Below are positions 34,566 to 48,560 of a stretch of DNA of 48,560 bases, piece by piece. How positions within the stretch are numbered: the stretch's first letter is position 1; the number at the start of each line of letters is the position of its first letter. The notes under the pieces are model-generated. The model was not told the origin of the DNA. It saw only the letters and a list, made by a program, of their open reading frames with translations, and searched no databases. Source of the stretch: Blastococcus sp. CT_GayMR16 (GTDB lineage: Bacteria > Actinomycetota > Actinomycetes > Mycobacteriales > Geodermatophilaceae); NCBI RefSeq assembly GCF_004570875.1, contig NZ_SPQK01000026.1, positions 1 to 48,560 of the forward strand. The letters are read 5' to 3'. Position numbers and translations under genes: made by a program.

Positions 34566-34641
34566 GTGGACTCCTCGCTGACGCTCGTCGTGTGCGTTCG
34601 CATGGCTCCGTTGCCCATCGGTGAACTCGCAAGCTCGTTCA
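34566..34641 (-). repeat. 76-nt gene-junction repeat, copy at flgN/flgK
   Basis: On the minus strand the unit begins with the flgN stop in TGAACGAGCTTGCGAG and ends with CGACGAGCGTCAGCGAGGAG plus 5 nt before the flgK GTG. It matches, at the same length, the fliF/fliG junction (43039-43114) and two tandem units before fliK. Confidence 0.85.
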
Positions 34642-35124
34642 CAGCGCACCGTCCAGGGTGACGGCGCGGTGCGAACCGTCGTCCGTGCGACCGGTCGAGC
34701 CGTAGGTGCCGGCATTCGGGGTCTTCACCGACAGCAGGGCGTCACCGATGGCGGCCAGGCCGCCCTCGATCAGCTCCCGGTTGGCGTCGGAGAGGCTGCG
34801 CAGGTCGGTGACGAGGACGAGCAGCGCCTCGTGGTGCTTGGCGAAGAGGTCGTTCCACGGCGCCGGAGCGGCGTCGGCGACCTGACGCAGGGACGGGTTG
34901 GCACCCAGGCCCAGCTTGACGGCGATGGCCTCGGTCGCGGCGGCGCGCTCCACCTCGAGCGTGCGGAGCTGGTCGAGGACCACCTCGATCTCGTGGGCGA
35001 TGCGCGCCAGCCAGCGGGTCTTGCCCGTCAGGATCAGGTACTGCTTCTCCTCGGCCTTGAACAGCAGCAGGTCCAGGAGCTCCTGCTCCCGCCACAGCAA
35101 CGTCGACAGGTGCTGGTAGTCCAC
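34639..35124 (-). CDS. flgN: FlgN-type flagellar export chaperone
   Basis: A 161-residue helical protein with the FlgN pattern: WREQELLDLLLFKAEEKQYLILTGKTRWLARIAHEIEVVLDQLRTLEVERA in the first half and the coil LRSLSDANRELIEGGLAAIGDALL in the second. FlgN chaperones FlgK and FlgL, whose genes follow directly. The start is GTG at 35124; the frame extends 37 codons upstream without similarity. It is the first gene of the leftward flagellar operon. Confidence 0.88.
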   Translation of the reverse strand: MDYQHLSTLLWREQELLDLLLFKAEEKQYLILTGKTRWLARIAHEIEVVLDQLRTLEVERAAATEAIAVKLGLGANPSLRQVADAAPAPWNDLFAKHHEALLVLVTDLRSLSDANRELIEGGLAAIGDALLSVKTPNAGTYGSTGRTDDGSHRAVTLDGAL

Positions 35125-35207
35125 GTGTCCACCGCCCTTCCGTCGTGTCTCTCCGCATCGCACCGGGGGCCACTTCTGGCAGCTCCCGGCGGATCTTCGT
35201 CGACCTG

Positions 35208-35236
35208 CCATCGGCATGCCGTCGCGAGCCCTCAAG
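35208..35236 (-). promoter_or_regulatory. Candidate FliA-type promoter of the flgN operon
   Basis: Read on the minus strand: CTTGAG (35236-35231), 15 nt, then GCCGATGG (35215-35208). The -10 resembles GCCGATAA of sigma-28; the -35 matches the local CTCAAG pattern in four of six positions. It is about 85 nt upstream of the flgN GTG. Confidence 0.5.
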
Positions 35237-35256
35237 CCGAAGCCGACAACTCGGTG

Positions 35257-35285
35257 CTCAAGTCGAAGAGGAAATGTGCCGACAG
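35257..35285 (+). promoter_or_regulatory. Candidate FliA-type promoter of fliA
   Basis: CTCAAG (35257-35262), 15 nt, GCCGACAG (35278-35285), ending 38 nt before the fliA GTG. It has the same spacing and the same CTCAAG as the flagellin promoter, which suggests autoregulation. Confidence 0.6.
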
Positions 35286-35323
35286 CGGTGCGATCCGGGC
35301 CACGGTCAGCCGAGAAGGAGGAC

Positions 35324-36292
35324 GTGAGCCCGACCCGTGCCCTGGCGGCCGACCGCCCCCTGCGTGAGCGGCCCCTGCGCGATCGAAATCAGCGCGAACG
35401 GACCCCGAACGCCCGACCGCAACAGTCGGCGCGGGGCCGGTCGCAGCAGGAGATCGACGCGCTCGTGACCGAACACCTGCCCCTGGCGTCGTTCGCGGTC
35501 AACGCCGTGGCGGCGCGCATCTCGCTGCCCGGCCACGTCAGCCGCGACGACCTCCTCTCCTGTGCGCACGTGGCACTGGTCGAGGTCGCCAAGCGGTTCG
35601 ACCCCTCCGCGGGAGCCTCGTTCGCCACCTATGCCCTGGCCCGACTGCAGGGGGCGGTGCTCGACGAGCTGCGCTCCGGCGACTGGGCCAGCCGGTCGGT
35701 GCGCGCTGCGGCCCGACGCAGCGATGCCGCGGCCGACGCACTCACCATCTCCCTCGGCCGGCCTCCCACGCGGGAGGAGCTCGCCGTCAGCCTCGGCGTC
35801 CCCCGCAGCGAGCTCGACAGCCTGCAGGTCGACGTCCACCGGGCCGTCATGGTCAGCATCGACGCCGAGACCGGTGGCGACGGCACGTCGCTGGACCTTC
35901 CCGACACCGGGGAGTCCCCCGAGCGCGCCCTGCTGCGCGGCGAGCGGGCTCGCTACCTGCACGAAGCGATCCGTGCACTGCCCGACCGGCTCGACGAGGT
36001 CGTGGAGCGCAATTTCTTCGGTGACGAATCACTGACCGACATCGCCGATGACCTCGGCGTCACACTCTCGCGCGTCTCGCAGATGCGAGCACGCGCGTTG
36101 ACCCTCCTGCACGCCGCGATGAGCGAGGTGTGGGAGGGCCGGCCGGTCCCCGCCGACGGCGGGGTCCGTGCCCGGAACCAGCAGAAGAGTTACGTGGACC
36201 GGGTTGCCGGCCGCGCTCCGACGCCGGTCACGGTCCCCCGCCAGCGGGCGGGATGGCCGATGGCCGGACACGGGACGGCCCAGCCCGCCTGA
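35324..36292 (+). CDS. fliA: Flagellar sigma factor FliA/WhiG type
   Basis: A 322-residue sigma-70 family protein. A basic N-terminus (about 1-40) precedes region 2 (VTEHLPLASFAVNAVAARISLPGHVSRDDLLSCAHVALVEVAKRFDPSAGASFATYALARLQGAVLDELRSGDWASR). Region 3 (TISLGRPPTREELAVSLGV) and region 4 (IRALPDRLDEVVERNFFGDESLTDIADDLGVTLSRVSQMRARALTLL) follow. The LRSGDWASR stretch is typical of FliA and WhiG. The Arg-rich C-terminal tail of about 45 residues is unusual. The start is GTG with AAGGAGG. It is likely to drive late flagellar genes. Confidence 0.93.
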   Translation: MSPTRALAADRPLRERPLRDRNQRERTPNARPQQSARGRSQQEIDALVTEHLPLASFAVNAVAARISLPGHVSRDDLLSCAHVALVEVAKRFDPSAGASFATYALARLQGAVLDELRSGDWASRSVRAAARRSDAAADALTISLGRPPTREELAVSLGVPRSELDSLQVDVHRAVMVSIDAETGGDGTSLDLPDTGESPERALLRGERARYLHEAIRALPDRLDEVVERNFFGDESLTDIADDLGVTLSRVSQMRARALTLLHAAMSEVWEGRPVPADGGVRARNQQKSYVDRVAGRAPTPVTVPRQRAGWPMAGHGTAQPA

Positions 36293-36337
36293 GCTACGCC
36301 CGACCAGGTGAAACGGCCGAGAAATGCGGTCGTTCGC

Positions 36338-36366
36338 CTCAAGGTGCGGCCCACCCGGGCCGTAAT
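36338..36366 (+). promoter_or_regulatory. Candidate FliA-type promoter of flagellin
   Basis: CTCAAG (36338-36343), 15 nt, GCCGTAAT (36359-36366). The -10 is close to the sigma-28 consensus GCCGATAA. The predicted start near 36373 leaves a leader of about 68 nt. Confidence 0.65.
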
Positions 36367-36398
36367 GACCACTGAGACAACACAACCACCCGCAGCAC

Positions 36399-36436
36399 GG
36401 ATGCAGCGGGATCTCCAGAACCCCTTCCAAGGAGGA
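36399..36436 (+). promoter_or_regulatory. Putative CsrA-binding region in the flagellin leader
   Basis: Four GGA motifs lie in the leader: 36399-36401, 36409-36411, 36431-36433 and 36434-36436. The last two are within the Shine-Dalgarno AAGGAGGAA. CTCC at 36413-36416 could pair with GGAG of the Shine-Dalgarno. The layout resembles the CsrA-repressed hag leader of Bacillus. CsrA binding here is inferred. Confidence 0.5.
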
Positions 36437-36441
36437 ACATC

Positions 36442-37710
36442 GTGGGTCTGCGCGTCAACAACAACATCGCGGCGCTCAACGCGTACCGCAACCTGTCCGT
36501 CACCGACGGCCAGATGAGCAAGTCGCTGGAGAAGCTCTCCTCCGGCTTCCGTATCAACCGCGCTGCAGACGACGCGGCCGGCCTCGCCATCTCCGAGGGT
36601 CTGCGCTCGCAGATCGGTGGCCTCAAGGTCGCCGTCCGCAACACCCAGGACGGTATTTCGGTCGTGCAGACGGCTGAAGGTGCGCTCACCGAGACGCACA
36701 GCATCCTGCAGCGCATGCGCGACCTGGCTGTCCAGGGCTCGAACGACGGCGGTCTGAACACCGACGCCAAGGGCAACATCCAGTCCGAGATCACGCAGCT
36801 CAAGTCCGAGCTCGACCGAATCGCGAGCTCCACCACCTTCAACGGCAAGAAGCTCCTCGACGGCAGCTACCAGGCCAGCTTCCAGGTCGGCGCCAACGCC
36901 GGCGAGACCATCGCCGTCAGCATCGGCACCGCCATGGGCGCGGCCGGCCTGAAGGTCGACGGGGTCGACGTGACCGGTGCGGGGGCCTTCGCCTTCCAGA
37001 CCGGCACCGCCGCCGCGTCGGGCAAGGCCGTCATCTCCACCGCGGCGACGACCGCCGCCGCCGCGGTCATGACGATCACCGAGACCACCGCCGGGTCCGC
37101 CGCCGACTGGAGCACCGGTTCCGGCTCGGTCGCCGCTTACCAGTCGCTGTCGGGCACGATCGGGTTCGGCGGCAAGACCCTGGACCTGGGCGCCGTGGAC
37201 TACGGGTCGGCCACCACCGCCACCCAGGCGCTGGCTGCCCTGAACACCGCCGCGCAGGCCGCGTTCGGTCTGGCCTCCGGTGTCAACCCGTTCGCGGGTT
37301 CGACCACCGGCGTGACCTTCACGGTGCCCGCCGTGGCAGTCGCGGGCTACACCACGGCCAGCGGTTTCGCCCTGAGCTCCTCGGCCGGCGACGTCGCCAA
37401 GGCCACCCCGACCTTCACCGCCGCCAGCGGTGCGGACGCAGCCATCGACCTGCTGGACACGGCCATCAAGAAGGTCTCCACCCAGCGGGCCGACCTCGGT
37501 GCGATCCAGAACCGGTTCGACCACACCATCAACAACCTCAACGTCGCGGTCGAGAACCTGACCGCCTCCGAGAGCCGCATCCGCGACGCCGACATGGCGC
37601 AGGAAATGGTCCAGTTCACCCGGAACCAGATCCTGTCGCAGGCCGGCACCGCGATGCTCGCGCAGGCCAACCAGGCCTCGCAGGGTGTCCTGCAGCTGCT
37701 CCAGGGATGA
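36442..37710 (+). CDS. fliC: Flagellin
   Basis: A 422-residue flagellin. The N-terminal D0/D1 (GLRVNNNIAALNAYRNLSVTDGQMSKSLEKLSSGFRINRAADDAAGLAISEGLRSQ) and C-terminal D1/D0 (VSTQRADLGAIQNRFDHTINNLNVAVENLTASESRIRDADMAQEMVQFTRNQILSQAGTAMLAQANQ) are canonical. The middle (about 165-340) is an Ala/Thr/Ser-rich variable domain that could be exposed and glycosylated. The start is GTG with AAGGAGG. Promoter, leader GGA motifs and a strong terminator mark it as a single transcript. Confidence 0.96.
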   Translation: MGLRVNNNIAALNAYRNLSVTDGQMSKSLEKLSSGFRINRAADDAAGLAISEGLRSQIGGLKVAVRNTQDGISVVQTAEGALTETHSILQRMRDLAVQGSNDGGLNTDAKGNIQSEITQLKSELDRIASSTTFNGKKLLDGSYQASFQVGANAGETIAVSIGTAMGAAGLKVDGVDVTGAGAFAFQTGTAAASGKAVISTAATTAAAAVMTITETTAGSAADWSTGSGSVAAYQSLSGTIGFGGKTLDLGAVDYGSATTATQALAALNTAAQAAFGLASGVNPFAGSTTGVTFTVPAVAVAGYTTASGFALSSSAGDVAKATPTFTAASGADAAIDLLDTAIKKVSTQRADLGAIQNRFDHTINNLNVAVENLTASESRIRDADMAQEMVQFTRNQILSQAGTAMLAQANQASQGVLQLLQG

Positions 37711-37742
37711 GCTAGCCGACAGCTAGGCGCAGCTCCACCCGG

Positions 37743-37776
37743 GTGAGGGGGGAGGCCCACCGGCCTCCCCCCTCAC
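37743..37776 (+). terminator. Perfect 15-bp hairpin after flagellin
   Basis: GTGAGGGGGGAGGCC (37743-37757) pairs with its exact complement (37762-37776) around a 4-nt loop, 32 nt after the flagellin stop and 40 nt before fliD. There is no T-run. Confidence 0.75.
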
Positions 37777-37816
37777 TCACACCCGCCCGATCCGCGTACC
37801 GACCCAGGAGGCAGAC

Positions 37817-39217
37817 ATGAGCATGAGTGTCGACGGACTGGTGTCGGGCATGGACACCACGAGCCTGATCAACCAGCTCATGCAGGCCGAGGCCGGGCCG
37901 CAGACGGCTCTCAAGACCAAGCTCGCGGCGTCGCAGAACAACGCGTCGGCCTACCGCACGGTCAACACGACCTTCCTCGCGGTCACCGCCGCCGCCGAGG
38001 CCCTCACCGCGGCGTCCCTCACGGCCGCCCGCAAGGTCAGCGCCAGCAACTCCAGCGTCACCGCGAGCGCCGGCACCACCGCCGTGCCGGGCGCCGCCAT
38101 CAACTTCACCGTCACGAACCTGGCGAGCACCCAGTCCGTCCTCAGCAACACCGAGTGGAGCTCGGCCACCGCCGACGTGCGCACGGTCGAGCCCGCCTGG
38201 CCGATCGAGATCCTCAACAGCGACCTGACGTCGCGCGGCACCGTGAGCGTCCCGCCCGGCGCGACCCTCGCCGAAGCCGTCGCAGCCATCAACACGGCGA
38301 ACCTGGGCGTGAAGGCCTCCACCGTGAGCACCGGCGGCGGCAAGTACCGCATGCAGCTGACGAGCGCGACCCCGGGCGCCGAGGGCACGTTCATCGTCAA
38401 GAGCGCCACGGAGACCCCGGCCACCGCCGGCACGAAGTTCGTCCAGACCAGCGCGGGCCAGGACGCCACCCTCGACCTGGGTGGCGGCGTCGTCGCCACG
38501 TCCACGAGCAACACCTTCGCCGACCTGCTGACCGGCGTCTCGGTCACCGTGTCCAAGGTCGATCCCGCCGCGGTGACCCTGACCGTCGCCAGCGACACCG
38601 ACTCGGTGACCAGCAAGGTCCAGGCCCTCGTCGACGCGATGAACGCGGCGCTCAGCACGGTGAAGACCTACACGTCCAACGCCAGTGGCAGCACGGCGGC
38701 GCTCAAGGGCGACTACTCGGTCACGTCGCTCGCGGGCAAGCTGCTCGACGCGGTGTCGAGCGCGGTGGGGGCCGACGGTTCCCCGGCCCAGGTCGGCTTC
38801 CAGCTCAGCAAGGACGGCAAGGTCACCTTCGACAAGGCCAAGTTCGCCACCGCGCTCAAGGACAACCCGGCCCTGGCGCAGCGGATGGTGGGCGGCACGC
38901 TCGGCAGCTTCGGCCCGGACGGCGTCGTCGGCGGCACGGACGACGTCGCCGCCACCACGGGCATCGCCGGCCGCATCCTCGCCGTCTCGAAGTCGGCGTC
39001 CGACGCCACGACGGGGACGCTGGTCGCCCTCGCCAACGGCCAGGACACCATGGGCAAGGACATCAAGGACCGCATCGCCGCGTGGGACCTGCGCCTGGCC
39101 AAGCGCAAGGAGACGCTCACCCGCCAGTTCACCGCCATGGAGACGGCGCTGAGCTCGCTCAAGAACCAATCGACCTGGCTCGCCGGGCAGATCAACTCGC
39201 TGTCGTCGTCGTCCTGA
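37817..39217 (+). CDS. fliD: Flagellar filament cap protein
   Basis: A 466-residue FliD (HAP2). The N-terminal helix is typical (DGLVSGMDTTSLINQLMQAEAGPQTALKTKL). The C-terminal domain has LVDAMNAALSTVKTYT, DGKVTFDKAKFATALKDNPALAQRMVGG and the final coiled coil (DLRLAKRKETLTRQFTAMETALSSLKNQSTWLAGQINSL). It caps the growing filament and helps flagellin fold. AGGAGG precedes the ATG. Confidence 0.94.
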   Translation: MSMSVDGLVSGMDTTSLINQLMQAEAGPQTALKTKLAASQNNASAYRTVNTTFLAVTAAAEALTAASLTAARKVSASNSSVTASAGTTAVPGAAINFTVTNLASTQSVLSNTEWSSATADVRTVEPAWPIEILNSDLTSRGTVSVPPGATLAEAVAAINTANLGVKASTVSTGGGKYRMQLTSATPGAEGTFIVKSATETPATAGTKFVQTSAGQDATLDLGGGVVATSTSNTFADLLTGVSVTVSKVDPAAVTLTVASDTDSVTSKVQALVDAMNAALSTVKTYTSNASGSTAALKGDYSVTSLAGKLLDAVSSAVGADGSPAQVGFQLSKDGKVTFDKAKFATALKDNPALAQRMVGGTLGSFGPDGVVGGTDDVAATTGIAGRILAVSKSASDATTGTLVALANGQDTMGKDIKDRIAAWDLRLAKRKETLTRQFTAMETALSSLKNQSTWLAGQINSLSSSS

Positions 39218-39266
39218 TCCCCCGCAGACCCTGCTCGATCTTCCCCACGCTCCAGGAGAAATCTCG

Positions 39267-39653
39267 ATGAGTGCCGCATCCCTCCGCGCCCGCTACCTCG
39301 GCGACTCCGTCGCGACGAGCTCGCCGCAGCAGGTGCTGGTGATGCTGTACGACCGACTGGCCCTCGACCTCGAGCGCGCCCAGAAGGCCGTCGCCGCCGG
39401 CGAGCGCGAGGCGGCCAGCGAGCAGCTGCAGCACGCCCAGGCGATCGTCCTGGAACTGCTGTCCAGCCTCCAGGTCGAGGCCTGGGAGGGCGGCCCGCGG
39501 CTCGCCTCGCTGTACAACTGGCTGATCGGCGAGCTCGTGCAGGCCAACATCAAGCTCGACACCAACCGGATCTCCGCCTGCCGCCAGGTGGTCGAGCCGC
39601 TCCGTGACGCGTGGCGCCAGGCCGCCGCCTCACTGGCGGGCAGTCCGTCATGA
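39267..39653 (+). CDS. fliS: Flagellin export chaperone
   Basis: A 128-residue FliS with the family opening LRARYLGDSVATSSPQQVLVMLYDRLALDLERAQKAV and the helix LYNWLIGELVQANIKLDTNRISACRQVVEPLRDAW. It binds the flagellin C-terminus in the cytosol. The stop overlaps the ATG of the next gene (ATGA). Confidence 0.94.
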   Translation: MSAASLRARYLGDSVATSSPQQVLVMLYDRLALDLERAQKAVAAGEREAASEQLQHAQAIVLELLSSLQVEAWEGGPRLASLYNWLIGELVQANIKLDTNRISACRQVVEPLRDAWRQAAASLAGSPS

Positions 39654-40009
39654 CCGGCCGGCGCCCCTTCGAGGGCGCGCACCAGCAGCCGACCCCGATC
39701 AACTGGACGGTCGTCCTGGACCACCTCGAGGGCGAGGTCCTCGCGGCCGAGGAGACGATGGCGCGCGGACGCGCCGACGAGATCGCCGCCTGGGGACGAC
39801 GCGCCGACGACTGGGTCCCGCCGTCCAGCCTGGGCACGATCCCGACCGACCTGCGCGAGCGGGCGGCCCGCCTCCTGCAGCACCAGCTCGCCGTCGCCGA
39901 GGCGCTGATCGAGCGGATCACGCAGTCCCAGCGCCAGCGTGACGTCGCCGCCCGGATGTCCTACGCACCCGCTCGCCCGGTCGCCTCCTTCATCGACAAG
40001 GCGCTCTAG
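39650..40009 (+). CDS. Hypothetical protein in the fliT position
   Basis: A 119-residue helical protein coupled to fliS by an ATGA overlap. Segments are INWTVVLDHLEGEVLAAEETMARGRADEIAAWGRRADDW and LRERAARLLQHQLAVAEALIERITQSQRQRDVAARMSY. Size, helical content and position fit a FliT-like chaperone for FliD, but sequence similarity is not evident. An 11-bp terminator-like hairpin follows. Confidence 0.65.
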   Translation: MTGRRPFEGAHQQPTPINWTVVLDHLEGEVLAAEETMARGRADEIAAWGRRADDWVPPSSLGTIPTDLRERAARLLQHQLAVAEALIERITQSQRQRDVAARMSYAPARPVASFIDKAL

Positions 40010-40025
40010 ACCGCTCTCCCCCGTC

Positions 40026-40056
40026 GCCCCGTCACCCGCCCTGCCGGTGACGGGGC
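40026..40056 (+). terminator. Intrinsic-type terminator after the fliD-fliS operon
   Basis: GCCCCGTCACC (40026-40036) pairs perfectly with GGTGACGGGGC (40046-40056); the loop is 9 nt and TCTTGTG follows. It is 16 nt after the stop at 40009. Confidence 0.7.
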
Positions 40057-40369
40057 TCTTGTGCGTTCTCGGCGTCCTTCGGCGTCCAGCGGCCTGATCG
40101 TGCACGGAAGGTGCCAACTCCCCCGCCCCCGTCGGCTCAGGACACGGCGAGGTCACCGCTGGTCACATGCACCACGGCGATCTCCTGCGACCCGGGCGCC
40201 CCTCCTGTGGGGGACCCGCGGTCACCCCCGGAGAGCCGGGTGCCGATGAGGCAAGAGCACGGACAGCACCACTTCGCCACGGATCGGCGGACCCCGCACT
40301 CGCTCGCGAGTGCCTTCCGCATACCCGGAGGTCGATCGTGTTCTGCTGCATCCGTCGGCGACCCGTTCC
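40057..40369 (+). promoter_or_regulatory. Leader region of the flgB-fliK operon
   Basis: About 310 nt without a credible gene. A possible FliA-type -10, GCCGATGA, lies at 40242-40249. Fifteen nt upstream is GTCACC (40221-40226), which shares only TCA with CTCAAG, so the assignment is weak. A short direct repeat GGCGTCC (40070 and 40081 areas) is visible. The long leader before flgB could be regulatory, but I see no recognised RNA motif. Confidence 0.35.
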
Positions 40370-40717
40370 ATGATCAACGACTCCACCTCGACGGCCCTGC
40401 ACGCCGCCCTCTCCGGGCTGGCGCAGCGCCAGCGGGTCACCGCGGACAACATCGCCAACATCCAGACTCCCGGATTCCTCGCCGGCCGCGTCGACTTCGA
40501 GTCCTCGCTGCGCGGGGCACTCCGCAGCGGTGAGGCCCCCGCGGTCAACGGCGGTACGACCGCCCGTTCGCTCGAGCCGACCAACACCAACGGCAACAAC
40601 GTCAACCTGGACCAGGAGACGGTCATCGCCACCGAGACCGGCCTGCGGTACCAGCTCGCCCTCAATGCGCTGGACGGCAAGTACAACGTCCTGCGCAGCT
40701 CCCTCAGGACGCAGTGA
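40370..40717 (+). CDS. flgB: Flagellar basal-body rod protein FlgB
   Basis: A 115-residue proximal rod protein with ALHAALSGLAQRQRVTADNIANIQTPGFLAGRVDFESSLRGAL and the C-terminal helix ETGLRYQLALNALDGKYNVLRSSL. The ATG at 40370 gives the usual N-terminus, although no good ribosome binding site precedes it and the frame is open upstream. It is the first gene of the rod, MS-ring and export-ATPase operon. Confidence 0.92.
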   Translation: MINDSTSTALHAALSGLAQRQRVTADNIANIQTPGFLAGRVDFESSLRGALRSGEAPAVNGGTTARSLEPTNTNGNNVNLDQETVIATETGLRYQLALNALDGKYNVLRSSLRTQ

Positions 40718-40718
40718 G

Positions 40719-41126
40719 ATGGCCGTCTTCGACACCCTCGGCATCTCGGCGTCCGGCCTCATGGTCAACCGCAAGTGGATGGACGCCGTCTCGGACAACA
40801 TGTCCAACCTCAACACGGTCAACCCGTACGAGGCCGAGCCCTTCCGCGAACGGCTGATCGTCGCCCAGGCCGTGGACTACGGCTCCGGGACCGGCGGCGT
40901 GCGCGTGGCCCGGGCCGAGTTCGGCGGGGACCCCCAGGGACGCATCGTCTACGAGCCCGACCACCCGCTGGCCAACGAGGAGGGGTACGTCCGGTACCCC
41001 GACATCGACATGGGTGACCAGATGGTCCAGCTGATGATGGCCCAGCGCGGCTACCAGGCGAACCTCGCCGTCGTCGAGCGGGCCACCAACGCGTACCAGG
41101 CCGCTCTGCGGCTCGGGAAGGGCTGA
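40719..41126 (+). CDS. flgC: Flagellar basal-body rod protein FlgC
   Basis: A 135-residue rod protein with FDTLGISASGLMVNRKWMDAVSDNMSNLNTV, GRIVYEPDHPLANEEGYVRYPDIDMGDQMVQLMMAQRGYQANLAVVERATNAYQAALRL. The ATG follows the flgB stop by 1 nt. Confidence 0.95.
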   Translation: MAVFDTLGISASGLMVNRKWMDAVSDNMSNLNTVNPYEAEPFRERLIVAQAVDYGSGTGGVRVARAEFGGDPQGRIVYEPDHPLANEEGYVRYPDIDMGDQMVQLMMAQRGYQANLAVVERATNAYQAALRLGKG

Positions 41127-41128
41127 CC

Positions 41129-41443
41129 ATGACGTTCCCCCTCGGCGGCATCATGCCCGTCGGTGTCGGCGCCACCTCCGGTGTGGCCGGCGCACTGACC
41201 GGCGTCCCGCAGGCGCAGAACTCCGACGGCTTCGCGGCCGTCCTGGCGTCGTCCATCGACGGGCTCCAGGGTGCGCAGAAGACCGCGGACACCCTGGCGA
41301 CCCAGGCCGCCACCGGCGACCTGAAGGACGTGCACGACTACATGATCGCCAGCAACGAGGCAGCGCTGGCGACCGAGATGGTCGTGACGATCAAGAACAA
41401 GGCCGTTGAGGCGTTCAACGAGATCATGAGGATGCCTGTCTGA
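41129..41443 (+). CDS. fliE: Flagellar hook-basal body complex protein FliE
   Basis: A 104-residue FliE linking the MS ring to the rod. The conserved end is VHDYMIASNEAALATEMVVTIKNKAVEAFNEIMRMPV. The stop overlaps the fliF ATG by 1 nt (TGATG). Confidence 0.94.
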   Translation: MTFPLGGIMPVGVGATSGVAGALTGVPQAQNSDGFAAVLASSIDGLQGAQKTADTLATQAATGDLKDVHDYMIASNEAALATEMVVTIKNKAVEAFNEIMRMPV

Positions 41444-43041
41444 TGAAGTCGGCACTCGCCGGGACGCTGGAGCGCGCCCGCTCTACGTTCTCAACGATCA
41501 GCTTGGGGCAGAAGGTCGTCATCGGCCTTCTGCTCGTCGGGCTGCTTCTCGGCGGGTTCTTCTTCTTCCGCTGGATCACCGCCCCCACCCAGGCCCCGCT
41601 GTTCTCCAACCTCGCGTCGGCGGACGCCTCGGCGATCGTCGACGAGCTGAACGCCGCCGGTGTCGCCTACGAGCTCACCGACGGTGGCCAGACGATCATG
41701 GTCGCCCAGGACTCCGTCTACGACCTGCGCCTGAGCATGAGCGGCAAGGGACTGCCGGCCGGCCAGGACACCGGGTACGCCCTTCTGGACCAGCAGGGCA
41801 TCACCACGAGTGAGTTCCAGCAGCAGACGACCTACCAGCGGGCACTGGAGGGTGAGCTGTCCAAGACCCTCGAGGCCCTGGACGGCGTGCAGACGGCGGT
41901 CGTGCACGTCGCCCTCCCCAAGGACGAGGTGTTCGTGACCGAGCAGTCCAAGCCCACGGCGTCGGTCATGCTGACGCTGGCGGCCGGCACGGCTCTGAGC
42001 GGCGAGCAGATCCAGGCGGTCACCAACCTCGTGTCCTCCAGCATCCAGGACATGGACCCCGATCAGGTGACCGTCACCGACTCCACCGGCCAGGTACTCG
42101 CGGCGCCCGGAACTGGCGTCACTGCCGCGGCCGGCGACGCCCGGTCGCAGGTCGAGCAGGAGTACGAGGGGCGCCTTTCGGCGAGTGCGCAGAGAATTCT
42201 CGACTCCGTCCTCGGCCGGGGCCGCTCGGTCGTGTCGGTGCGCGCGGACGTCGACCTGTCCCAGCGGCAGTCGACGTCGGAGACCTACACCTACCCCAAC
42301 GGCGCCCCGCCGCTGTCGTCGAGCACCACGACGGAGGCCTACACGGGAAGTGGCACGCCTGTGGGCGGCGTCCTCGGACCGGAGAACATGCCCGACGCGG
42401 CGGCCAACGCCGGTGGGGGCGGCTCTACCTACAACAAGGGACAGACGACCGAGAACAACGCCGTCGACAAGACAGTGGAGACCGTCGAGTCCGCGCCGGG
42501 CGTGCTCAACCGGCTCACGATCTCGGTGGTGATGGACGACGCCGTCGCCGCGAACCTCAACCAGCAGCAGATGCGCGACCTCATGACCACAGCCGTCGGT
42601 CTCGACACGGCACGCGGCGACGCCATCACTGTCGCCTCCCTGCCGTTCGACACCACGGCCGCCGACGCTGCCGCCGCGGACATGGCGGCCGCCCGCGCGG
42701 CCGACGCCAGCGCCCAGATGTGGTCGATGATCCGCACCGGCGGCATCGCGGCCGGCATCGCGCTCGTCGTCCTCCTGGTGTGGCTGCGCTCCCGCCGTCA
42801 GGAGGAGATCGAGGACGACTACGAGCCCCTCGAGCTCACCGACGACATGCTCGCCGAGCTGGACCGGCTCCGGATCTCCAGCACCCGCGAGGAGCTCCGC
42901 CCCAAGGTCGATACCGCAGCCATGGAACTCGAGGCCGCCGAGCGGCAGAAGGTACGGGGGGAGATCTCCACCATGGTCAGCGAGCGTCCCGACGAGGTCG
43001 CGGCGATGCTCCGCGGCTGGTTGAGCGAGAACAAGTCGTGA
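41443..43041 (+). CDS. fliF: Flagellar MS-ring protein FliF
   Basis: A 532-residue FliF with two transmembrane segments (about 25-46, VVIGLLLVGLLLGGFFFFRW; about 430-447, GGIAAGIALVVLLVWL). Ring-building motifs lie between them, including PLFSNLASADASAIVDELNAAGVAYELTDGGQTIMV and ALEGELSKTLEALDGVQTAVVHVALP. The long YscJ/FliF middle has KTVETVESAPGVLNRLTISVVMDD. The C-terminal cytoplasmic tail should bind FliG. The stop codon is the first codon of a 76-nt junction repeat. Confidence 0.95.
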   Translation: MKSALAGTLERARSTFSTISLGQKVVIGLLLVGLLLGGFFFFRWITAPTQAPLFSNLASADASAIVDELNAAGVAYELTDGGQTIMVAQDSVYDLRLSMSGKGLPAGQDTGYALLDQQGITTSEFQQQTTYQRALEGELSKTLEALDGVQTAVVHVALPKDEVFVTEQSKPTASVMLTLAAGTALSGEQIQAVTNLVSSSIQDMDPDQVTVTDSTGQVLAAPGTGVTAAAGDARSQVEQEYEGRLSASAQRILDSVLGRGRSVVSVRADVDLSQRQSTSETYTYPNGAPPLSSSTTTEAYTGSGTPVGGVLGPENMPDAAANAGGGGSTYNKGQTTENNAVDKTVETVESAPGVLNRLTISVVMDDAVAANLNQQQMRDLMTTAVGLDTARGDAITVASLPFDTTAADAAAADMAAARAADASAQMWSMIRTGGIAAGIALVVLLVWLRSRRQEEIEDDYEPLELTDDMLAELDRLRISSTREELRPKVDTAAMELEAAERQKVRGEISTMVSERPDEVAAMLRGWLSENKS

Positions 43042-43114
43042 GCGAGCGCGCGAGCTCACGCATGAGCCCAGCACGGCCCGGTATGGCGGCGACGAGCGTC
43101 AGCGAGGAGTCGTC
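43039..43114 (+). repeat. 76-nt gene-junction repeat, copy at fliF/fliG
   Basis: It begins with the fliF stop in TGAGCGAGCGCGCGAG and ends with CGACGAGCGTCAGCGAGGAG plus 6 nt before the fliG ATG. The 3' 20 nt are identical to the flgN/flgK copy. Confidence 0.85.
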
Positions 43115-44200
43115 ATGACGATGGCAAGCATGGAGCAGCTCGTCGGGATCGGCGGGGCAGCGTCCAACCTGCCCGCCGTCGCGGCGCCTCCCGCGCGCGC
43201 CGAGCTCCCCGGCCTGCGCAAGGCCGCCGTCTTCCTCGCCCAGATGAGCAAGGAGGAGGCCGGCGTCCTGCTGTCCAAGCTCCGGCCGCGCGAGGTCGAG
43301 TCGCTCACCCGCGAGCTGATGCGCCTGGGCTCGGTCGAGTCCGAGGACGTCGACGGCGTCATGAACGAGTTCCACGGCCTGATGACCGCACAGCACTTCA
43401 TCGGCCGCGGTGGCGTGGACTTCGCCCGCGAGATCCTGGCCGCGGGCCTGGGCGAGGACAAGGCCGAGGGCATCCTGTCGCGGCTCAACGTCGTCTACAC
43501 CGAGGTCCCGTTCGCCTCGCTGCGCAATGCCGACACCCGCCAGCTCGTGACGTTCCTCAAGGACGAGCACGCGCAGATCATCGCCCTGGTGCTCGCGCAC
43601 CTCACCGCAGGGCAGTCGGCCGAGGTGCTCTCCGGTTTCGCGCCGGAGCAGCAGGCCGAGGTCGCCCACCGCATCGCCACCATGGACCGCACCTCCCCGG
43701 AGATGGTCCGGCTGGTCGAGGAGGAGCTGGGCCGCCGGATGGGCTCGCTGCTCGCGCACCAGGACATGACCACGGTGGGTGGCGTCGAGACCCTCGTCGA
43801 GATCATCAACCGCTCGCCGCGGCCCACGGAGCGCTCCATCCTCGAGTGGCTGGACAACACCGACCCCGAGCTCGCCGAGCAGGTCCGGTCGCAGATGTTC
43901 GTCTTCGAGGACATCGTCACGATCGACGACCGGTCCCTGCAGCAGGTGCTGCGCGAGGTCGAGGCCAACGACCTGGCCACGGCGCTCAAGGGTGTCCGGC
44001 CCGACGTCCGCGACAAGGTCGTCCGGAACCTCTCCGAGCGCGCCTCCGAGAACCTCAACGAGGAGATCGAGCTGCTCGGCCCGGTGCGCACCCGCACCGT
44101 CGAGGAGGCCCAGGCGAAGGTCGTCACGGTCATCCGGACGCTCGAGGAGCAGGGCGTGCTCACGCTGACCCGCGGTCAGGACGATGAGTTCGTTGCGTGA
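43115..44200 (+). CDS. fliG: Flagellar motor switch protein FliG
   Basis: A 361-residue FliG with an N-terminal extension of about 30 residues. The N domain is KAAVFLAQMSKEEAGVLLSKLRPREVESLTRELMRLG. The middle domain has LKDEHAQIIALVLAHLTAGQSAEVL. The C domain is MFVFEDIVTIDDRSLQQVLREVEANDLATALKGVRPDVRDKVVRNLSERASENLNEEIELLGPVRTRTVEEAQ, with the charged torque helix. The middle-domain EHPQR-type motif is EHAQI here. The C-terminus overlaps fliH by 17 nt. Confidence 0.95.
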   Translation: MTMASMEQLVGIGGAASNLPAVAAPPARAELPGLRKAAVFLAQMSKEEAGVLLSKLRPREVESLTRELMRLGSVESEDVDGVMNEFHGLMTAQHFIGRGGVDFAREILAAGLGEDKAEGILSRLNVVYTEVPFASLRNADTRQLVTFLKDEHAQIIALVLAHLTAGQSAEVLSGFAPEQQAEVAHRIATMDRTSPEMVRLVEEELGRRMGSLLAHQDMTTVGGVETLVEIINRSPRPTERSILEWLDNTDPELAEQVRSQMFVFEDIVTIDDRSLQQVLREVEANDLATALKGVRPDVRDKVVRNLSERASENLNEEIELLGPVRTRTVEEAQAKVVTVIRTLEEQGVLTLTRGQDDEFVA

Positions 44201-44960
44201 GGGAGTGCTGCTGCGCGGCAGCGGAGCAGAGCGGGCCACGCCGTATCGCGAGCAGGGTCCGGTCCAGCACCACATTCCCCAGCAGCAGACGCAGCCCCGC
44301 GAGGAGCACCTCCAGGTCGAGGAACGGCGGTCGACCATCCGCCGGGCCGCCGATCTGCCGGTCGTGGGCGGCGGCGCCTCCTTCCGGCTCGGCGACGTGT
44401 ACGCCGAGGAGCTGGAGCGGCTGCGCCAGCACGCCCACGCTGAGGGCTTCGCCGCCGGCCACGCCGAGGGCATGGGTGCGGCCGCCGCGGTCGTCGCCGA
44501 GGCGGAGCGGGCGGCCGCCGAGAGGCTGGCCGACGTCCAGGCGCGGTGGGAGCGGCGGGTCGCCTCGGCGACGGCCGCGCTCGGCGCTGCGGTGACCCGG
44601 CTCGACGAGGCCGTCGTCCCCGTCGCCGACGAGGTGCGCGAGACGATCATCGGGATGGTCCTGACGCTGGTCGAGGACATCCTCGGCCGGGAGCTCGCCC
44701 TGGCCGAGTCCCCCGTGCTCGACGCCGTCCGCCGTGCGCTGGCCCTGTGCCCGTCCGACTCGCCGACCGTCGTCCGCGTCCACCCCGACGACCTCGCCGA
44801 GATCCCGGCCGAGGCGCTCGCCGAGCTGCCGGACTCCGTCCGGGTGCTCGGCGACCCGGCCGTCGAGCGGGCCGGCGCGGTGGCCGAGACCGGTCCTCGC
44901 CGCATCGACGCCCAGCTGATGTCGGCTCTCGAGCGGGTCCAGGCGGTCCTGACCTCATGA
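44184..44960 (+). CDS. fliH: Flagellar assembly protein FliH
   Basis: A 258-residue regulator of the FliI ATPase. A variable Gln-rich N-terminus precedes a long helix with GxxxG-like Ala/Gly repeats (HAEGFAAGHAEGMGAAAAVVAEAERAAAERLADVQARWERRVASA). The FliH/SctL C-terminal domain follows (VPVADEVRETIIGMVLTLVEDILGRELA...VRVHPDDLAEI). It starts within the fliG end and overlaps the fliI ATG by 4 nt. Confidence 0.92.
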   Translation: MSSLREGVLLRGSGAERATPYREQGPVQHHIPQQQTQPREEHLQVEERRSTIRRAADLPVVGGGASFRLGDVYAEELERLRQHAHAEGFAAGHAEGMGAAAAVVAEAERAAAERLADVQARWERRVASATAALGAAVTRLDEAVVPVADEVRETIIGMVLTLVEDILGRELALAESPVLDAVRRALALCPSDSPTVVRVHPDDLAEIPAEALAELPDSVRVLGDPAVERAGAVAETGPRRIDAQLMSALERVQAVLTS

Positions 44961-46267
44961 GTCTCCCCAGCGCCCTGATCACGCGGGCCCGCGCCGCGGC
45001 CCGGCCGCAGGTGACCGGTTCGGTCAGCGGGGCCATGGGCCTGACGATGACCGTCGACGGCCTGTCCGCCGCGGTCGGCGACCTCGTGGAGGTCAACCCG
45101 GGCGAGCGGGGGCTGCTGGCCGAGGTGGTCGCGGTCGGCCGCGACCGGCTGACCTGCATGCCGCTCGGCACGCTCTCCGGCGTGCACGCCGGCGCCCCCG
45201 TCCGCGCGACCGGCATGCCGCTGCAGGTGCCGGTCGGCGAGGCACTGCTCGGCCGGGTGCTCGACGGGCTCGGCCGGCCGGTCGACGGCGGTCCGCCGCT
45301 GGGCTCCCGCGTCTCCTACGTCGACCTGGCCAGCGAGACCCCGCACGTGCTGTCGCGCAGCCGGGTCGACGAGCCACTGACCTTCGGCGTGCGCGCCCTC
45401 GACACCCTGGTCCCCTGCGGCAAGGGACAGCGACTCGGCATCTTCGCCGGTTCGGGCGTCGGCAAGTCCAGCCTGCTGGCCCAGATCACCCGCGGCACCG
45501 ACGCCGACGTCCGCGTCATCGGCCTGATCGGCGAGCGTGGTCGTGAGGTCCGCGAGTTCATCGAGGAGAACCTCGGGCCCGAGGGCATGGCGCGCACCGT
45601 CGTCGTCGTCGCCACCTCCGACGAGCCGCCGCTGGTGCGGCTGAAGGCCGCATTCGTCGCCACCCGTATCGCCGAGGCGTTCCGTGACCAGGGCCGCGAC
45701 GTGCTGCTGCTCATGGACTCGATCACCCGCACCGCGATGGCCCAGCGCGAGGTCGGCCTGTCGGCGGGCGAGCCCCCGGCGACCCGCGGCTACCCGCCGA
45801 GCGTGTTCGCGATGATGCCGCAGCTGCTGGAGAAGGCCGGTACGGGAGTCACCGGGTCCATCACCGGGCTGTACACCGTCCTGGTCGAGGGCGACGACCA
45901 CAACGAGCCGATCGCCGACACCGCCCGCTCGATCCTGGACGGGCACATCGTGCTCACCCGCAAGCTGGCCACCGTCGGCCACTTCCCGTCCATCGACGTC
46001 CTCGAGTCGATCTCCCGGGTGGCAAGTGCCGTCGTCCCGCCGGAGCAGATGGCCGACGCCCGCGAGGTCCGCCGGCTCATGGGCGCGCTTCGCGACGTCA
46101 AGGAGCTCATCGAGATCGGCGCGTACCAGACCGGCACCGACCCCCTCGTCGACCGCGCCCGCCAGCTCGCGCCGTCGATCGAGTCGTTCCTGCAGCAGCC
46201 CATGGGCGAGTCGACGCCGCCGGAGGAGTCCTGGTCGTGGTTGCAGCGGATCGTGAGGGGCGCATGA
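44957..46267 (+). CDS. fliI: Flagellum-specific ATPase FliI
   Basis: A 436-residue ATPase of the flagellar type III export apparatus. Walker A FAGSGVGKSSL is at about residue 165, GLIGERGREVREFIEE follows, Walker B is in DVLLLMDSITRTAMAQREV, and the later segment is GEPPATRGYPPSVFAMMPQLLEKAG. The C-terminal helix EIGAYQTGTDPLVDRA is also typical. It is coupled to fliH by an ATGA overlap. Confidence 0.96.
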   Translation: MSLPSALITRARAAARPQVTGSVSGAMGLTMTVDGLSAAVGDLVEVNPGERGLLAEVVAVGRDRLTCMPLGTLSGVHAGAPVRATGMPLQVPVGEALLGRVLDGLGRPVDGGPPLGSRVSYVDLASETPHVLSRSRVDEPLTFGVRALDTLVPCGKGQRLGIFAGSGVGKSSLLAQITRGTDADVRVIGLIGERGREVREFIEENLGPEGMARTVVVVATSDEPPLVRLKAAFVATRIAEAFRDQGRDVLLLMDSITRTAMAQREVGLSAGEPPATRGYPPSVFAMMPQLLEKAGTGVTGSITGLYTVLVEGDDHNEPIADTARSILDGHIVLTRKLATVGHFPSIDVLESISRVASAVVPPEQMADAREVRRLMGALRDVKELIEIGAYQTGTDPLVDRARQLAPSIESFLQQPMGESTPPEESWSWLQRIVRGA

Positions 46268-46310
46268 CAGCCCGATCGACGTGGCCGCCCGAGTTGCGCG
46301 GGGGTATGGC

Positions 46311-46778
46311 GTGAAGCGCGCCGTCTTCCGGCTGCAGCCGGTCCTGGAGCTGCGCCGCACCGAGGAGCGCGCCGCCGCGGCCGCCGCAGCGCAGGCCGCG
46401 AACACCGCTGCCGACGCCGACCGCCGGGCCACCGACTACGAGACGGCGCTGGCCGGCGCCTCCCTTCCGCGCATGCTGCCCGCCCGCGACTTCGTCCTCG
46501 CGATGACGCTGCTGCGCACCGCCGCGACCGACGCCTCCGACGCCCGCTCCCTGGCCACCGCGCAGGCGGAACAGGCCGAGCTCGTCCGTGCCCAGTGGAC
46601 GGCGGCCGCCCAGCGCACCAAGGGCATGGAGAAGCTGCGCGAGCGACACCAGGTCGCCCTCCAGCACGCGGAGGACGCCGCCGAGGAGCGGGCGGTCGAC
46701 GACCTCGTCACCGGCCGCGCCGGCCGGGCGAAGACCACCGGAACCGACGTCGCCGAGGGGGTCTCGTGGACGGAGTGA
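46311..46778 (+). CDS. fliJ: Flagellar export protein FliJ
   Basis: A 155-residue coiled-coil protein, preceded by a G-rich ribosome binding site, GTG start at 46311. The N-terminus FRLQPVLELRRTEERAAAAAAAQAANTAAD is typical of FliJ. The rest is an Ala-rich antiparallel coiled coil (AERAQAEL-like heptads). FliJ stimulates FliI and escorts chaperones. It overlaps the hydrolase gene by 13 nt. Confidence 0.88.
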   Translation: MKRAVFRLQPVLELRRTEERAAAAAAAQAANTAADADRRATDYETALAGASLPRMLPARDFVLAMTLLRTAATDASDARSLATAQAEQAELVRAQWTAAAQRTKGMEKLRERHQVALQHAEDAAEERAVDDLVTGRAGRAKTTGTDVAEGVSWTE

Positions 46779-47713
46779 CTCAGGTCCAGACCCGGATCAG
46801 CGAGATCCAGTCGCGCTTCCTCTACGCACCGAAGTCGACGGGCTCCGGCGACTGGGCGAGCGCGGCCGCGGCCGCCGGCCTCAACTCCACTGGCGCGACC
46901 TCGGCCGGGAGTTCGACTGCGTCGGCCTCGGAGAGCGCAGTCGTCGCCGAGGCGCAGAAGTACATCGGGGTGCCCTACCTCTGGGGTGGCACCGACCCGT
47001 CGAAGGGCCTGGACTGCTCCGGCTTCACGCAGCAGGTGTTCGAGAACCTGGGCATCGACCTGCCGCGGACTTCCTCCCAGCAGGCGACCGCCGGTCGTCC
47101 GGTCGCGTCGGTCGCCGACGCCCGCCCGGGCGACCTGGTGTTCTTCGACTACTCGTCGGATCGGCCGGGCATCGATCACGTCGGCATCTACCTCGGGGAC
47201 GGCAAGATGATGGACTCGCCGAAGCCCGGGGACACCGTGGGTGTCCGCAACGTCGGCACACCCACCCTCATCCGCCGCGTGCTTCCCGAACCGACGCTGT
47301 CGGCCGCTTCGTCGAGCGGTGGCGCGGCGCTGGCCGGCGTGCCCTATGCCGACCTCTTCAGCCGGGCGGCCAGCCGGTACGGGGTGGACGCCTCACTGCT
47401 CGCGGCGGTCGCGTCGCAGGAGTCGAGCTTCAATGCCTCGGCGGTCTCCCCGGCCGGCGCCCAGGGGCTCATGCAGTTCATGCCCGCCACGGCCAAGGGG
47501 CTCGGCGTCAACGCCCTCGACCCGAACTCGGCCATCGACGGCGCGGCCCGGTACCTCAGCCAGCTCACCAAGCAGTTCGGTTCCACCGACCTGGCGCTGG
47601 CGGCCTACAACGCCGGCCCCGGCACGGTGAGCCGCTACGGCGGGATCCCGCCCTACCCCGAGACCCAGAACTACGTCCGAAGCGTGATGAGCAAGGCGGA
47701 GGCCTACCGATGA
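46766..47713 (+). CDS. NlpC/P60 plus lytic transglycosylase (SLT) protein, probable flagellar peptidoglycan hydrolase
   Basis: A 315-residue two-domain hydrolase. The NlpC/P60 domain (about 55-165) has AQKYIGVPYLWGGTDPSKGLDCSGFTQQVF and DHVGIYLGDGKMMDSP, with catalytic Cys and His. The SLT domain (about 195-310) has RYGVDASLLAAVASQESSFNASAVSPAGAQGLMQFMPATAKGLGV and LALAAYNAGPGTVSRYGG, with the catalytic Glu in SQESSF. No signal peptide is visible, so export through the flagellar apparatus, as for FlgJ, is plausible. The start is GTG at 46766 with GAGGGGG; GTG at 46775 is the alternative. Its TGA opens a tandem junction repeat. Confidence 0.88.
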   Translation: MDGVTQVQTRISEIQSRFLYAPKSTGSGDWASAAAAAGLNSTGATSAGSSTASASESAVVAEAQKYIGVPYLWGGTDPSKGLDCSGFTQQVFENLGIDLPRTSSQQATAGRPVASVADARPGDLVFFDYSSDRPGIDHVGIYLGDGKMMDSPKPGDTVGVRNVGTPTLIRRVLPEPTLSAASSSGGAALAGVPYADLFSRAASRYGVDASLLAAVASQESSFNASAVSPAGAQGLMQFMPATAKGLGVNALDPNSAIDGAARYLSQLTKQFGSTDLALAAYNAGPGTVSRYGGIPPYPETQNYVRSVMSKAEAYR

Positions 47714-47787
47714 ACGAGCTCGCGAGTCCATCCAGGAACGCAGCACCGTTCGGTCACGAGGCCGACGAGCGACAGCGAGGAGGACCC
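47711..47787 (+). repeat. 77-nt gene-junction repeat, first of a tandem pair
   Basis: It starts with the hydrolase stop in TGAACGAGCTCGCGAG and ends in CGACGAGCGACAGCGAGGAG plus ACCC-type spacer before a GTG at 47788. It matches the flgN/flgK and fliF/fliG junctions. Confidence 0.85.
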
Positions 47788-47788
47788 G

Positions 47789-47864
47789 TGACCGAGCTCG
47801 CGAGGGAACACAGGGACAGAGCACCGGTGGTCGCGACAGCGACGAGCCCCGGCGAGGAGACATC
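47789..47864 (+). repeat. 76-nt gene-junction repeat, second of a tandem pair
   Basis: It starts TGACCGAGCTCGCGAG and ends with GGCGAGGAGACATC before the fliK GTG at 47865. It is more diverged in the 3' block (CGACGAGCCCCGGCGAGGAG). Confidence 0.85.
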
Positions 47865-48560
47865 GTGACCGCTCCCGTGATCCCGTCCGCGCCAGGGGCT
47901 CGGACGACGTCCGCGAGCGGTGCTGCATCTCGCAGCAGCACCGGACCCTCGCCCTTCGCCTCGATGCTGGACGACGCGCTGTCCGCCGACCGGCCCGCGG
48001 GCCGCGGTCCGGCTGACCGGGGCGTGGAGCGGCGCACCTCCTCGGACGAGCGGGACGCCCGCGCGGCGGACCGCGCTGCCGACACGGCCGACCGCGCCGC
48101 CGACCGGGTGGCCGACAGGGCCGACCGCGCCGTCGACCGGGCCGCTCACCGGGCGGAGCGCGCAGCTGCGCACGCCGCCTCCCGTGCGGGCCGGGCCGGC
48201 GACCGGCCGTCCGGGACGTCCGACGTTCCCGAGGGCGACGGTCCCGTCGGCGACGCGAAGACCGTGGTCGCCCCCGAGACCCCCGTGTCAGCAGCGCCCG
48301 AGGCGAGCACGGAGCCGGTCCCCTCCGGACTGCCGGCCGCCGTATGGGCGCTGTTGATGGGTGGCCCTGCCGTGGTCCCGGTGCAGACCGAGGTTGCGCC
48401 GGGGACGACCGACGCGACCACAGCGGTCGCACCGGTCGCTGCGGTGGCTGCCGCCTCGGCCGATCCGACGGACCTGCCTGCCGGCCCGCCCGTCGTGCCG
48501 GCCGGAGCCGCTGCCGCGGAGACCGTCGCCGTGCCGGCCGCCGGGCCCGCCGCACCGCCC
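47865..48560 (+). CDS. fliK: Flagellar hook-length control protein FliK, N-terminal part (3' truncated by window edge)
   Basis: An open frame of 232 codons without a stop to the window end, starting at GTG with GGCGAGGAG upstream. The opening (TAPVIPSAPGARTTSASGAASRSSTGPSPFASMLDDALSADR) resembles FliK N-termini. A charged ADRAADTADRAADRVADRADRA-like repeat follows, then Pro/Ala/Thr-rich sequence. The conserved FliK C-terminal domain lies outside the window. The assignment rests on position after fliJ and the hydrolase, size, composition and the N-terminal FASMLDDAL stretch. Confidence 0.7.
   Translation, partial: MTAPVIPSAPGARTTSASGAASRSSTGPSPFASMLDDALSADRPAGRGPADRGVERRTSSDERDARAADRAADTADRAADRVADRADRAVDRAAHRAERAAAHAASRAGRAGDRPSGTSDVPEGDGPVGDAKTVVAPETPVSAAPEASTEPVPSGLPAAVWALLMGGPAVVPVQTEVAPGTTDATTAVAPVAAVAAASADPTDLPAGPPVVPAGAAAAETVAVPAAGPAAPP

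Follow-up and report, generated by a model that had tools for sequence, protein, structure and literature searches.

A dispersed repeat at start codons in Actinomycetes carries a hairpin arm that covaries with the bases of its host genes

Results

Four repeat units lie at gene junctions in the window

The window, a 48,560-nt contig of Blastococcus sp. CT_GayMR16, contains four copies of a short repeat, all at the places reported in a first-pass annotation of the sequence. Copy A, a 77-nt unit (34566..34642, minus strand), lies between flgN (34639..35235, minus strand; Pfam FlgN, PF05130, E 3.4e-20) and flgK (33159..34565, minus strand; Pfam FlgK_D1, PF22638, E 1.5e-51), which starts with GTGAG; it contains a 26-codon open reading frame (ORF) with its stop codon at 34564-34562. 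Copy B, also 77 nt (43038..43114, plus strand), separates fliF (41443..43041, plus strand; Pfam YscJ_FliF, PF01514 and PF08345) from fliG (43115..44200, plus strand; Pfam FliG, PF01706, PF14842 and PF14841), which starts with ATGAC, and its 26-codon ORF stops at 43116-43118. Copies C and D form a tandem pair on the plus strand, downstream of a gene for a lytic enzyme with NlpC/P60 and SLT domains (46595..47713, plus strand; PF00877, PF01464). The lead unit, C, is 78 nt long (47710..47787) and its ORF continues in frame through copy D, giving 52 codons; the second unit, D, is 77 nt long (47788..47864) and has a 26-codon ORF with its stop at 47866-47868. The open frame that follows (47865..48560, plus strand) runs up to the contig end; no Pfam family was found in 47865-48557, and from its position we infer that the frame is fliK-like. 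A genome of the same genus has, in addition to the closer fliG, a second and more divergent one (L260, G024:C1:3754577).

The 3' motif that the annotation described as common to the copies is exact in three of them and has two mismatches in the fourth, and the window holds four matches with up to three mismatches against 0.24 expected. The shared 5' motif is exact in two copies and has one mismatch in the other two, but taken alone this motif is not a usable signal (9 matches against 6.9 expected). The annotated lengths of 76, 76, 77 and 76 nt are right when counted from the T of TGA, but become 77, 77, 78 and 77 nt when counted from the R of RTG. A known RNA family was considered and set aside: Rfam 15 gave no match above the gathering score in the window and none in 13 loci.

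The repeat is dispersed in the genome, the family and the class

The first-pass annotation had proposed a profile search of the complete genome. A covariance model built from 25 copies, after a pattern search and reading of the loci, gave 32 matches at E <= 0.1 in the window's own genome, a 4.52-Mb draft in 47 contigs of which the window is one (C18); the five weakest, all below 25 bits, were dropped, leaving 27 copies of at least 58 bits. These occupy 24 sites, three of which are tandem pairs. A flagella-specific element is unlikely, since contigs other than the window carry 23 of the 27 copies.

Matches were found in 106 of 112 genomes of the family, representing 11 of 12 genera, and in none of the remaining six genomes. 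They number from 1 to at least 41 per matching genome; one same-genus genome has 80, weak matches included, and within one genus the range is from 4 to 80. At the level of the class, where 11 candidates were scored per genome, 81 of 394 genomes had a match at E <= 0.001; many single weak matches near 1e-4 are regarded as noise, and strong copies occur in families f2, f10, f11, f15 and f19. Among the matches listed are Geodermatophilus, Blastococcus, Modestobacter, Pseudonocardia, Amycolatopsis, Sciscionella, Kineosporia and others. The class-level units that were read measure 68, 71, 77 and 80 nt, with a few of 69, 79 and other lengths. Tandem arrays comprise two to four units; in several genomes, equally scoring units follow one another every 77 nt, and locus L215 has identical 68-nt units. 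A different tandem array, with units of about 50 nt that mix the two ends of the repeat, begins at locus position 1501 of L226 (G208) and is perhaps a decayed relative.

The unit extends from start codon to start codon

The unit had been annotated as running from the upstream stop codon to the ribosome binding site of the next gene, a boundary that we replace: its natural limits are two start codons. All 27 own-genome copies have RTG at the 5' end and RTGA at the 3' end. The ends of the unit read RTGAGCGAGC (5') and GAGGAGnnnnnRTGA (3'). A small ORF, mostly of 26 codons (25 to 27 in the ORFs read), overlaps its neighbours at RTGA; read from the first RTG, it stops exactly at the TGA that overlaps the next RTG (+1) in 24 of the 27 copies. 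The three exceptions each lead one of the tandem pairs and measure 75, 78 and 78 nt; their ORFs read through the second unit to its exact end. In all three pairs the first unit is a multiple of three nucleotides long, which fuses its ORF with that of the second; arrays in other genomes often proceed at 77-nt steps.

The annotation took the TGA to be the upstream stop or to overlap a start. Upstream coding status was assessed visually, on the basis of frame length and third-position GC. The stop of an upstream coding frame overlaps the 5' RTG at 17 of the 24 own-genome sites (15 as RTGA and two as TAATG or TGATG). At the other seven sites no clear overlapping upstream gene was found, the upstream sequence being judged non-coding or uncertain (five have an SD-like motif before the 5' RTG, by a loose pattern), and the landing site is therefore the start codon, RTGA, regardless of a stop. 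Downstream of all 24 terminal units in this genome there is an open frame that measures 240 nt or more and has a third-position GC of at least 0.87. In two further genomes, for which 108 of 130 matches were used (the remainder being weaker, partial or not fetched), the solo or last units have RTGA at the 3' end in 49/52 and 32/35 cases and an ORF stop at +1 in 40/52 and 25/35, more decay than in the window's genome.

Differences between copies fall on the three codon positions in the proportions 197/236/202, and the peptide is unconserved. A selected peptide was rejected, there being no codon-position or synonymous bias, and the peptide of the small ORF does not seem to be of importance in itself. 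Nor are unit lengths significantly frame-keeping: 14 of 32 units of lengths other than 77 nt equal 2 mod 3. The annotated picture of an element between cistrons survives in that the repeat is dispersed, duplicating and keeps the stop/start overlap, but it missed the internal ORF and the hairpin formed between arm and host described below.

Orthologous junctions are empty or filled

Orthologous junctions with and without the repeat, a comparison likewise suggested at the outset, differ by one unit, the step from an empty to a filled site being 77 nt exactly. For each copy, left and right flank were aligned separately against the loci and the gap between them was measured. The gap is 77 nt in 75 copy-locus pairs, 0 in 40, 80 in 15 and -3 in 14, and more rarely 74 (12 pairs), 78 (11) or 154 (4); the pairs are not independent, many of the 77s being the same own locus fetched twice, and some 0-gap pairs are differences in array length or weak matches. 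The best case of an empty site has flank identities of 97/96% (L154 versus L101, with a Blastococcus MAG in the pair). At the fliF-fliG junction, the window's copy lies between ..aagtc and ATGACGATGG; a relative from another genus (L235) has ..aagtc directly followed by ATGACGATGG, and two relatives from the same genus (L232, L236) have ..aagtc directly followed by GTGAC. Because orthologous junctions are empty or filled with such precision, we conclude that the repeat moves or duplicates; the family is dispersed and probably still mobile.

The unit ends are not inverted repeats of one another, i.e. terminal inverted repeats are absent. As regards a target-site duplication, the base after TGA agrees between the two ends in 98 of 126 solo copies and there is a weak excess of agreement at -2, -4 and -5, but the R of RTG differs between the ends in 10 of 27 own-genome copies. 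The Y1 transposase domain (PF01797) was found in neither the window's genome (0/1) nor 18 genomes of the family (0/18, 14 of which have at least 39 matches), against 5/14 control genomes. Mobilisation by a Y1/RAYT enzyme was rejected, no such enzyme being found in these 19 genomes.

A hairpin arm in the 3' half covaries with host bases

In the left half of the unit, RTGAN (positions 1-5) pairs with positions 18-22, and at 5-18, 10 of 25 own-genome copies are changed on both sides and still paired. In copy B this hairpin (43038..43059, plus strand), around CGAG..GCGAG, is present in the copy's own minimum free energy (MFE) fold, and pairs 1-22 and 5-18 covary over copies. The right half consists of one long hairpin, 41-53 with 72-84, that holds the SD sequence, the start codon and host codons 2-3, positions 82 and 83 closing host codon 2 and position 84 opening codon 3. 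The right hairpin of copy B (43078..43121, plus strand; unit positions 41-84) accordingly runs from the arm through the SD block and spacer to the start codon, and takes in host codon 2 and a single base of codon 3; it is supported by covariation over 172 copies and is present in the copy's own MFE fold. That of copy C (47751..47794, plus strand) is present in the MFE fold with z = -4.61 (0/200 shuffles equally stable), and the start downstream of this copy is that of the ORF in copy D. The equivalent positions in copy A (34559..34602, minus strand) and copy D (47828..47871, plus strand) were assigned by alignment only and the hairpin is absent from their own MFE folds. Over all single-copy folds, the right hairpin appeared in three of six sequences, and five of the six were no more stable than shuffles, one being more stable.

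The 5' arm of this right hairpin covaries with host bases. The base after the downstream RTGA pairs with position 43 in 160 of 178 solo copies (shuffled mean 80, maximum 100 in 2000 shuffles), the 178 being drawn from 192 copies with a 3' RTGA after 14 without a clear anchor were dropped. Over the 172 copies with standard spacing, 43:82 is paired in 156 (shuffled mean 78), and covariation z scores are 13.3 for 43-82, 10.0 for 47-78, 8.7 for 41-84, 8.3 for 42-83 and 5.3-7.1 for 48-77, 49-76, 50-75, 52-73 and 53-72, with shuffles that ignore relatedness. In the same copies covariation ends at 40-85 (z 0.1), pair 51-74 has no significant covariation (z 1.8), the host side of 46-79 never varies, and no slid register rises above its shuffles. 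Positions 44.81, 45.80, 54.71 and 55.70 are mostly G.A or A.G oppositions, which are assumed to pair; 44.81 is G.A in 134/172 copies and 45.80 is A.G in 88/172, and those at 54-55/70-71 enclose the invariant segment 56-69. Arm and target are complementary over up to 11 contiguous pairs in register. Class-level loci (the f19 68-nt type and others) supplied 29 units; among the 14 that were solo with a clear anchor, the variable base is paired in 12 (shuffled mean 6.4, the best of 2000 shuffles also reaching 12) and the start-codon base in 10.

Several other descriptions were tried. The target was first predicted mainly from positions 5/18, which gave way to 37 and 43 and, after these, to the arm as a whole. 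A pseudoknot in which the arm forms the loop (stem 40-42/49-51) was set aside because the long hairpin is simpler and support for the pseudoknot is weaker (42-49 z 5.4, 41-50 z 4.3). Wobble pairs, as a sign of pairing at the RNA level, were too few to use. When a trend of pairing with age was looked for, 12 of 17 old copies were paired. Position 37, outside the hairpin, is often identical to host base 82 (G-G in 86, C-C in 49 and T-T in 5 of 178 copies).

Match between arm and host could arise if the arm were a targeting guide, with moving DNA or RNA picking start codons complementary to it, as IS200/IS605 guides pair with their cleavage sites. The complementarity in register is what such a guide would give, the order guide - hairpin - target resembles the IS200/IS605 right end, and the subtype of the left half predicts the target base: copies with C18 tend to have G at the target and those with G18 tend to have C (p=1.8e-11 overall, and p=0.0012 and 0.00018 when single genomes are taken), and the base after TGA is the same at both ends in 98 of 126 solo copies. 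Nevertheless, PF01797 is absent from the 19 genomes examined, and near-identical left halves carry different arms, which argues that one guide is not simply reused; we regard targeting by the arm as unlikely.

The arm differs between sites with the same left half

The 42 orthologous filled pairs, which may include cases of separate insertion at the same site, contain 54 cells changed in both arms; 35 of these are paired in both members, as compared with 0-1 of 20-34 in slid registers. The orthologs L146 and L175, for example, differ by G-C to C-G at 52-73, and none of the others among 201 copies is closer to L146. Fifty non-orthologous pairs (38 loci) with at most one difference in positions 1-36 differ by 2.2% in this segment, 28.7% per site in the arm, 3.9% in the SD block and 25% in the spacer and host start; when arms are swapped within them, the own arm pairs better in 28, equally in 18 and worse in 4. 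Among 17 copy pairs identical in 1-30, differences rise abruptly near 38/39, become infrequent over block 54-72 and reappear at 73. Between orthologous sites, differences in the arm versus the left half are 6.2% versus 13.4% at 88-100% flank identity (n=6), 18.8% versus 18.4% at 80-88% (n=7), and 36.9% versus 24.6% at 60-80% (n=22, possibly including independent insertions). From these ortholog and non-ortholog comparisons it follows that the arm is stable for a while at each site and differs between sites despite the same left half.

The sharp borders in the 17 pairs, the excess of arm differences in the 50 and the faster divergence of the arm between distant orthologs would all be produced by template switching in an imperfect hairpin, which would copy one arm onto the other and so correct the arm to the host after insertion; pairing would then be kept up by mutation and not by function. 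Template switching is described as making and keeping RNA hairpins (PMC8794818). Such copying would, however, repair the common G.A at 44.81 and A.G at 45.80, and the arm is slower than the left half at close orthologs and equal to it at intermediate ones, leaving this explanation doubtful. A further alternative is that gene conversion among old, fixed copies keeps their left halves alike while arms stay, with little or no transposition. Left halves that diverge more than arms between close orthologs, yet are near-identical between unrelated sites, fit gene conversion, but the 0-nt gaps at empty sites whose flanks are highly identical and the wide spread of copy number within one genus do not, and we consider it distinctly improbable.

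We read these patterns as an arm remade at or soon after insertion, with gene conversion of left halves as the main alternative. Tentatively, on arrival the arm may be remade to complement the start codon and codons 2-3 of the new gene, placing the start at once under the control of upstream translation. It is similarly conceivable, short of an even chance, that the constant parts, 1-38 and 54-72, move and that the 15-nt arm, 39-53, is site-specific. If true, mobile DNA would here adapt to a host gene in an uncommon manner, by an arm remade for each site, and synthetic operons might draw on it as a coupling module.

Discussion

We favor the view that this is a dispersed repeat of Actinomycetes, similar in its working to the mycobacterial interspersed repetitive units (MIRUs), that inserts at RTGA start codons and would keep translation of the host operon coupled. 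The repeat supplies the SD sequence of the host gene, which could be held in the hairpin together with the start codon, and the hairpin may prevent this strong SD from driving initiation at the host gene by itself. A ribosome coming in from the upstream side would translate the small ORF and open the hairpin, then terminate at the TGA overlapping the host start and reinitiate. We infer such coupling because of the anatomy of the unit and the known -4 coupling (PMC12548453). If reinitiation at the host start is coupled in this way, insertion would therefore be nearly neutral and tolerated inside operons; the repeat is most likely a near-neutral mobile cassette for translational coupling. Structures for translational coupling in ordinary operons, reviewed in the same source (PMC12548453), are alike in that the start lies in an RNA structure opened by upstream translation. 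Here, in contrast, the module is a dispersed repeat with a site-specific arm and a proposed opening.

MIRUs, about 40-100 nt in length, have long been used for strain typing. Given a large, polymorphic, non-mycobacterial family in which empty and filled sites can be compared and the hairpin matches the host, it becomes possible to test how such repeats land on start codons and why they are tolerated. The first-pass annotation knew of no described family of this kind, a statement contradicted by PMC12548453 (Brown and Wade 2025, citing Supply 1997), in which mycobacterial MIRUs are described as apparently mobile, with insertion at start codons and an ORF under -4 coupling. Three identical 77-bp MIRUs are reported for senX3-regX3 of one strain in PMC4213456, which likewise cites Supply 1997. 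Like MIRUs, the repeat is short (mostly 77 nt), sits at start codons, has an internal ORF overlapping at -4, and occurs both dispersed and in tandem arrays (2-4 units). By analogy it would work like a MIRU, and membership is not claimed. A literature search, a weak one in that subscription literature was thinly covered, found no description of the family outside mycobacteria.

A MIRU core pattern (up to two mismatches) was found in 65 of 118 genomes of one genus, presumably Mycobacterium, and the reversed pattern gave no matches. Of the 20 MIRU loci, several (L267, L268 and L270 among them) have a unit of 53 nt whose TGA overlaps the start that follows, and in others this is not seen. Common landing site, -4 ORF and tandem arrays, along with GAGCG..AGCGA..GGAG-like blocks seen by eye in both, would be expected if the repeat were a true MIRU relative diverged beyond detection, which would extend a known element to other genera. 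We consider this somewhat unlikely: at 19 of the 20 loci (one locus not being given) covariance model R1 found nothing significant at the position of the MIRU, and by eye MIRU units appear to lack arms pairing with the start codon. MIRU units also differ in length, being 53 nt in two arrays read and 51 in a third, whereas the repeat has about 26 codons and two start-codon hairpins.

Other small elements share part of this anatomy. IS200/IS605 and REP/RAYT elements have same-strand hairpins near both ends with a short recognised sequence beside each, in which the repeat is like them, and the repeat also has an internal sequence complementary to its end, as in the IS200/IS605 type; it differs in that no Y1 transposase was found in the 19 genomes searched, in its strict placement at start codons and in its internal ORF. 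MITE-like repeats (ERIC, BOX, RU) are likewise small, non-autonomous and dispersed, and RU elements are reported to carry ORFs (PMC2759123), but the ends of the repeat are not mutual inverted repeats and its placement is exactly at start codons. As a side observation on the MIRUs themselves, L267 and L268, from Mycobacterium-like genomes, contain tandem arrays of three and six 53-nt units.
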